64,000 nucleotides of DNA. Source: Deltaproteobacteria bacterium HGW-Deltaproteobacteria-15. GTDB taxonomy: Bacteria > Desulfobacterota > DSM-4660 > Desulfatiglandales > HGW-15. Below are positions 45,888-47,537 of this stretch, piece after piece. The DNA is taken from positions 248,001 through 312,000 of the forward strand of contig PHBH01000010.1 in NCBI GenBank assembly GCA_002840535.1, read 5' to 3'. A model generated the notes under the pieces. That model had not been told where the DNA came from. It saw nothing but the letters and a program-made list of their open reading frames with translations, and did not search any database. The position numbers and the translations under genes are program-made. Numbering within the stretch: the first letter of the stretch is position 1; each line of letters starts with the position of its first letter.

Positions 45888-46016
45888 TTATTTCATATAG
45901 TTGATATGTTTTTCCCGATAGAAGCGGTACGCCTTTTCGCTAAATGCATCCAAATATCTTTGAAAAGCCCGCTTCAAAGCAACCTTGAGACTCCCCGCGA
46001 GTATTGCATTTTTCAT
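45888..46016 (-). CDS. 42-residue small protein with an ideal ribosome-binding site
   Basis: A minus-strand frame from ATG 46016 reads MKNAILAGSLKVALKRAFQR, then YLDAFSEKAYRFYREKHINYMK, stop at 45888. TTAAGGAGGCGCCAT precedes the ATG, so AAGGAGG lies six bases before it, the best-spaced site in the area. The peptide is strongly basic and would form one long amphipathic helix with many Tyr/Phe. I know no family. It is convergent with metG, leaving 35 bases between their stops. The gene is easy to miss because it is short; it may be a membrane-surface or nucleic-acid-binding peptide. Confidence 0.6.
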   Translation of the reverse strand: MKNAILAGSLKVALKRAFQRYLDAFSEKAYRFYREKHINYMK

Positions 46017-46196: not shown

Positions 46197-46517
46197 TCAG
46201 GCATGCTGCCAGGGGAATCCCACTTTTTTCCAGGCTTCGACGCCGCCTCCCAGTACCATGACGTTTTGGTATCCCAGGTCGGTGAGTTTTTCTGCCTGAC
46301 CGGCAGAAGTGGCTTCCTGGGGTCATGCGCAGTAGAAGATGATCTCCTGGTTTTTGGAAAGAGTAGGAAGCTTCTGTTTGAAATCCCCCATTTTGATCGC
46401 GCCTTCCAGGTTATTGGACTTACACCGGGCTTCATCCTCGTACGCGCAGACAAAGAGCGCACTGCCGGATTTAACCCTTTGAAAAGCGTCTTTAGGTGCA
46501 ATGCGTTTGGGTCCCAT
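46197..46517 (-). CDS. Rhodanese-like selenoprotein (in-frame UGA as selenocysteine)
   Basis: A 106-residue rhodanese-like domain read through a UGA at 46325-46323. The frame before it, from ATG 46517 (AAAGGAGG upstream), is MGPKRIAPKDAFQRV to EIIFYCA; the frame after it continues PQEATSAGQAEKL, VMVLGGGVEAWKKVGFP and stops at 46197. Cys63 is the normal rhodanese catalytic position and residue 65 would be Sec, giving C-A-U. Both halves fit one rhodanese fold, and FYCAUP followed by EATSA is a pattern known from deltaproteobacterial Sec-rhodanese families. A SECIS-type hairpin follows the UGA at the right distance. The alternative, a nonsense mutation, is less likely because the second half is undamaged. 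Confidence 0.85.
46290..46308 (-). promoter_or_regulatory. Bacterial SECIS-type hairpin
   Basis: On the transcribed strand TTCTGCC-GGTCA-GGCAGAA forms a perfect 7-bp stem with a five-base loop. The loop carries GGUC, like the AGGUCU loop of E. coli fdhF. The loop begins 21 bases after the UGA, within the usual 16-37 base distance. It lies inside the coding sequence, as bacterial SECIS elements do, and would recruit SelB. Confidence 0.8.
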
Positions 46518-46748
46518 CTTCTTCCTCCTTTGGCAGATACTCTTACCCGCTTCTAAACCACCTGGATATGAATAGGCAATAAGGTATTTCCCGTATAACT
46601 CCGTAATGGAGAACCTTAGTAAAGACGCAGCAACCTGAAACCGGTCAGGAGAGTTCTGCCTTGCTCGAAAGAGAGAGTGAGCAATATAATGCCGGGCAGG
46701 TGCTTGGCGTGACCAGGAATATCTTTTGAAGAAGAAAGAGGGACATTG

Positions 46749-47537
46749 ATGAGCGAACCGCACGTTCTGTATGAGATCAAAGACAATGTGGCTGTAATTA
46801 CCCTGAACAGGCCTGAGGTGAGGAATGTTTTCTCAAAGGAAATGATCGGGCTCTGGAACGGATTTCTCGAGAAGGCCCGGGACGACAAGGAGGTGCGTGT
46901 CATTGTCCTGACTGGAAATGGGGACACCTTTTGCTCGGGAGGGGACATCCGGGAAATGGCCGAGGGAAAGCTCCGCTCCTGGGAGATAAAAAACTTTCTC
47001 TGGGAAGGCGTCCACCGCATTGCCTTGAATCTGGAGAATCTGGACAAACCGGTCATCGCCGCCATCAACGGGGCCGCCATGGGCGCCGGCATGGATATGG
47101 CCCTCATGTGCGACATAAGGATGTGTTCCGACCGGGCCGTGATGGCCGAATCCTACATTCACCTGGGCCTTGTTCCTGGAGATGGGGGAGCCTATTTTCT
47201 GCCGCGGCTGGTGGGACCGTCAAAGGCAATCGAGCTTCTTTTGACGGGCGATCCCATTCATCCCGAAGAGGCCCTGAGGCTGGGGATCGTTAATCATGTG
47301 GTCGAACATGGGCGACTCATGGAAGAGACACTCCGGTTAGCCGAAAAGATCGCCCGGAAACCGCCCCTGGCCGTTCGTATGATGAAGCGCGCTGTCAGAC
47401 GGGCAAGGACCGGCGACTTGCGCTTACACCTGGATTACATTTCCTCACAACTGGCCCTTCTGACGGAAACCGAGGATCACCTGGAGGCGGCAAAGGCCTT
47501 TCTTGAAAAGAGAGAACCTGTTTTTTCCGGAAAATGA
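46749..47537 (+). CDS. Enoyl-CoA hydratase/isomerase family protein
   Basis: A 262-residue crotonase. The oxyanion hole is formed by CSGGDIREM and the AAMGAGMDMALMCDI segment. The first catalytic Glu of hydratases is Asp here (GAGMDM), and the second position is Tyr (AESYIHLGL), with an Asp further on in VPGDGGAYFLPRLVG. The pattern differs from classical hydratase and suggests isomerase, hydrolase or another crotonase reaction. Start: ATG 46749 (a TTG one codon earlier is also in frame). It lies near an acyl-CoA ligase (convergent) and may work in acyl or ring-acid degradation. Confidence 0.88.
   Translation: MSEPHVLYEIKDNVAVITLNRPEVRNVFSKEMIGLWNGFLEKARDDKEVRVIVLTGNGDTFCSGGDIREMAEGKLRSWEIKNFLWEGVHRIALNLENLDKPVIAAINGAAMGAGMDMALMCDIRMCSDRAVMAESYIHLGLVPGDGGAYFLPRLVGPSKAIELLLTGDPIHPEEALRLGIVNHVVEHGRLMEETLRLAEKIARKPPLAVRMMKRAVRRARTGDLRLHLDYISSQLALLTETEDHLEAAKAFLEKREPVFSGK

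Follow-up and report, generated by a model that had tools for sequence, protein, structure and literature searches.

The window is the 64,000-nucleotide stretch of contig PHBH01000010.1 from Deltaproteobacteria bacterium HGW-Deltaproteobacteria-15 that we analysed. On its minus strand, the frame from 46517 to 46197 contains only two stop codons, both TGA, one internal (46325-46323, residue 65) and one terminal, and reads MGPKRIAPKDAFQRVKSGSALFVCAYEDEARCKSNNLEGAIKMGDFKQKLPTLSKNQEIIFYCA-U-PQEATSAGQAEKLTDLGYQNVMVLGGGVEAWKKVGFPWQHA when it is translated across the internal one, with the residues EIIFYCA-U-PQEATSAGQAEKL around the UGA. The features of the locus are as follows.

46197 to 46517, minus strand: predicted selenoprotein gene (106 aa), from ATG 46517 through the in-frame UGA (Sec65) to the terminal TGA at 46199-46197, an end point that relatives share.
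46524 to 46530, minus strand: Shine-Dalgarno-like AAGGAGG, seen in the sequence 6 nt upstream of ATG 46517.
46446 to 46448, minus strand: Cys24 (VCAY), at the Asp position of the rhodanese Asp-Val-Arg motif, clade-invariant in the alignments.
46329 to 46331, minus strand: Cys63, which aligns with the catalytic Cys of classical rhodaneses; four relatives have TGA (Sec) here.
46323 to 46325, minus strand: UGA codon, putatively Sec65, with TGA in every clade relative.
46290 to 46308, minus strand: putative bSECIS hairpin UUCUGCC/GGCAGAA with the loop GGUCA at 46301-46297, assigned by its position and its conservation across the clade.

As the initial annotation had expected of standard gene callers, the ORF listing stops at the internal TGA (46325-46323), where it ends an ORF of 146 aa. 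Inside this mechanical ORF we placed the start at ATG 46517 because AAGGAGG lies 6 nt before it; the GTG at 46763, which gives the 146 aa, was rejected in favour of this ATG, whose Shine-Dalgarno sequence is good and which agrees with where the family starts. The terminal TGA was also considered as a second Sec codon and rejected, since the next 50 nt are no more stably folded than shuffled sequence (z = -0.87) and relatives stop there. The claim that a single rhodanese-like domain is interrupted by the UGA held together with its coordinates: Pfam Rhodanese (PF00581) matches one domain at residues 42-98, which spans the UGA and both halves (E = 2.4e-9; 38 bits against a cut-off of 22.2). The gene probably encodes a small, single-domain, rhodanese-fold selenoprotein with a cytosolic location. 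Just downstream of it, a small ORF MKNAILAGSLKVALKRAFQRYLDAFSEKAYRFYREKHINYMK (window 45888-46016, minus strand) has a Shine-Dalgarno-like AAGGAGG of its own.

For homologues, we scanned genome contigs using peptide patterns that do not include the UGA, and eight loci matched. Seven of them are true relatives from other MAGs (45-62% identical), including MAGs titled Poribacteria and Abyssobacteria; each has its TGA at the very same codon, within (K)NQEIIFYC-x-U. The remaining locus is only distantly related, a rhodanese with 29% identity that lacks this motif. A phylum sample of 395 genomes gave 26 matches above 110 bits in 25 genomes, each with an in-frame TGA, followed by one broken copy at 88 bits and then, at about 75 bits, by other rhodaneses. 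About 30 relatives from the same phylum have TGA at exactly the Sec65 codon, and with further members added from class searches, about 40 sequences from many genera share it. Aligned across the UGA, a check proposed with the initial annotation, the homologues all extend past it with TGA at the same codon, and a Cys form of this clade (the VCAY clade) was seen neither among the relatives from other MAGs nor in the phylum sample or the class searches. Among close pairs, dN/dS after the UGA is about 0.03-0.24 in five of six, which indicates purifying selection, about equal to or stronger than that before the UGA; in the one weak pair (L080/L083), selection is weaker on both sides. In one locus (L084 / L007, G161:C18:21649), a deletion immediately past the UGA shifts the frame and takes the hairpin with it. 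The ORF listings around six relatives, compared by inspection only, share no conserved gene neighbourhood that might point to a partner or substrate.

The bSECIS model describes a stem of 4-16 bp and a loop of 3-9 nt at 16-37 nt from the UGA, with G among the first two loop positions and an MFE of at most -7.5 (PMC13188914). A 7-bp hairpin with GGUC in its loop had been claimed at the right distance from the UGA, and it was found exactly there: UUCUGCC-GGUCA-GGCAGAA (46308-46290) starts 14 nt after the UGA, and its 5-nt loop GGUCA lies 21 nt after it. With 7 bp and -11.3 kcal/mol, this hairpin fits the model throughout and is at variance with bacterial SECIS elements in nothing (PMC13188914). 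Taken as a single sequence it is unremarkable (41-nt z-score of -1.36, with 20 of 200 shuffles equally stable), and synonymous recoding gives p of about 0.04 for 7 bp. Over 32 related sequences it far exceeds chance: the summed stem amounts to 169 paired positions, while 2000 synonymous recodings at matched GC3 average 51 and never go above 90. Compensatory double-sided changes occur in 23 cells versus 12.4 +/- 2.6 after shuffling, a count that none of 500 shuffles reached. Both tests are somewhat inflated by kinship among the sequences. The number of hairpin pairs with double changes shows no excess over shuffles, three of the seven pairs are invariant across the clade, and hairpin conservation overlaps in part with coding constraint. 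In nearly all clade members the loop starts 20-22 nt past the UGA, and its sequence is mostly GGUC, otherwise CGUG, CGGG or AGU. Rfam gave no match around the gene.

The genes selA, selB, selC and selD were sought in the host genome as the initial annotation had suggested, and all four are present: selA (619 bits), selB (391 bits), selD (378 bits) and a tRNA-Sec (selC) whose anticodon is UCA by ARAGORN. Generally, carriers of the clade also carry selB, which scored above the cut-off in 28 of 29 genomes. The sole carrier in which it was not found, G161, is 85% complete and holds a broken copy of the gene; the broken copy is consistent with decay after the loss of Sec use, and the missing selB could reflect genome incompleteness.

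From these comparisons, Sec is almost certainly inserted at UGA 46325-46323, giving Sec65. SelB with GTP and Sec-tRNA would bind the GGUC-loop hairpin just past the UGA and deliver Sec, and one 106-aa protein would be made in place of a 64-aa stub. If the UGA were an ordinary stop, the gene would be such a truncated stub, or a rhodanese pseudogene with a decayed 3' half. Mechanical gene calling does end at this codon, and the relative L007/L084 is truly broken right after it, but the same TGA recurs in all those sequences (about 40, many genera) and the 3' half is conserved under purifying selection, so that this alternative appears refuted by conservation and is highly improbable. Reading of the UGA as Trp, or general stop readthrough without Sec, is even harder to credit: the final codon and many clade gene ends are TGA stops, the SECIS hairpin and the full Sec machinery are present, and a CxC version occurs in the cousin L087. 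The selenocysteine rhodanese with SECIS proposed in the initial annotation is therefore supported by the conserved TGA, the hairpin and the sel genes, and the best explanation overall (probability of about 0.93) is a Sec-decoded, 106-aa, rhodanese-fold protein with a Cys63-Ala-Sec65 active-site loop.

An AlphaFold2 model from seven sequences, in which Sec was modelled as Cys, has a mean pLDDT of 89, and its best Foldseek matches in the PDB are rhodaneses. The single-domain thiosulfate sulfurtransferases GlpE/PspE likewise consist of one rhodanese domain of about 105 aa, and the predicted fold matches GlpE 1gmx with a TMq of 0.76, whereas the window protein is without their classical active loop and Asp-Val-Arg motif and has an extra Sec two residues past the Cys. 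Asp-Val-Arg is replaced by Cys-Ala-Tyr, with Cys24 for Asp and Tyr for Arg. The active loop, CAUPQEATS, is two residues longer than the classical CxxGxR type and lacks its Arg, and the protein thus falls outside that type. The C-A-U motif named earlier as the active site is present, with the refinement that Sec65 does not sit at the classical catalytic position, occupied by Cys63, but two residues after it, within the active loop. This Cys-x-Sec pair is kept throughout the clade, with Sec-x-Sec in four relatives. By eye, lipoprotein-type N-termini are apparent in L001, L003 and L039 and absent from the window protein; because relatives differ from it in this way, the subfamily may, judging from sequence, be active in more than one compartment.

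Among curated families, NF041203 comes closest; NCBIfam describes it as a rhodanese-related (seleno)protein. It corresponds to form 3 of the rhodanese-like selenoproteins, with a CxU motif (rhodanese_LYCAU; PMC13188914). All seven aligned members match this model, and the two clade scores known (65.8 bits for the window protein, 64.3 for L065) are both below the cut-off of 115. The window protein has the C-x-U in the active loop that marks the family and, like NF041203, combines a rhodanese domain and YC-x-U-P with a bSECIS at the same spacing. The window clade differs in having Cys-Ala-Tyr for Asp-Val-Arg and a shorter segment ahead of the active loop, in forming a separate clade, in showing no Cys form and in including some UxU members. 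In a maximum-likelihood tree, 32 VCAY sequences form one group (support 100/98) apart from the Asp-Val-Arg CxU rhodaneses. The host genome contains one gene of each sort, the VCAY-clade gene and a true NF041203 CxU selenoprotein (L025; G000:C54:92796-93161, minus strand; 171 bits, 1 TGA). On this evidence the window protein is placed in a sister clade to the CxU rhodanese family, not as a plain member of it. The CxU kind is known, while the VCAY clade is apparently undescribed: our literature searches, which covered open-licence papers only and do not show absence, found no paper on it, and selenoprotein surveys may have lumped its members into the CxU form. TsoB (NF045694), a rhodanese/DsbD fusion selenoprotein with UxxxxU, shares a Sec rhodanese domain, but its 572-position fusion model is matched at only 25 bits and the motif spacing is different.

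We are least sure of the enzymatic role, whether in thiol/selenol redox or in persulfide chemistry, and a redox or persulfide-reducing function of the Cys63-Sec65 centre is proposed tentatively, at slightly under even odds. In such a cycle, Cys63, at the classical nucleophile position, would take sulfane sulfur or become oxidised; Sec65 would then attack Cys63 with release of the sulfur or oxidant. Cys63 and Sec65 would now be joined as a selenenylsulfide, which Cys24 or a thiol of the cell would reduce again. We favour this centre because Cys-x-Sec is invariant and can become Sec-x-Sec. The protein, equally Sec-recoded, might instead be a sulfur- or selenium-carrying transferase, donating persulfide or selenopersulfide (for instance, Se to SelD). 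The rhodanese fold and the selenium use of the carriers suit this idea, which we consider plausible but somewhat less likely than the redox role, as the normal C-x-x-G-x-R loop is replaced by the longer C-A-U-P-x-E-x-T-S without Arg. Besides, the clade occurs in only a minority of the sampled phylum genomes (selB was counted in carriers only), so a general Se-delivery factor seems unlikely.

Returning to the selenenylsulfide centre, TGA also stands at the catalytic Cys codon in four relatives from four genera: L065 (YUSU), L078 (YUAU), L093 (NUGU; centre copy), which is the tandem copy in G477, and L040 (YUSU). L040 is frameshifted downstream, and the other three are otherwise intact. In these genes two TGAs, 6 nt apart from start to start, precede a single hairpin at 21 nt and 27 nt from them, both within the bSECIS model range. 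A UxU rhodanese was mentioned neither in the review searched nor in a text search of open-licence papers. Each case could be a TGC-to-TGA mutation or an assembly error in a single MAG, but its recurrence in four relatives at the one codon speaks for function. That the VCAY clade is an obligately Sec-dependent subfamily, in which Cys24 and Cys-x-Sec would make a three-chalcogen site and some members would have Sec-x-Sec diselenide-type centres served by one SECIS, seems to us an evenly balanced proposition.

The finding is confirmed: the selenoprotein call is a good one, its kind is known, and the novelty, which is modest, lies in the clade definition and the Sec-x-Sec variants. A gene cut short by standard annotation in many genomes is thereby recovered, and a clade is defined that scores under the threshold of the nearest curated model. 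The Sec-x-Sec members would provide a simple test, set up by nature, of whether a single bacterial SECIS can direct two nearby Sec insertions, and also of what selenium contributes to rhodanese chemistry.

Elsewhere in the host genome, selD (L034, G000:C54:12650-13570) has one in-frame TGA and is apparently itself a selenoprotein gene. Two adjoining rhodanese domains (L028 and L030; G000:C3:29705-30274, minus strand) each have an in-frame TGA in YCEGxTUxxS and probably represent the known UxxS form of rhodanese selenoprotein.
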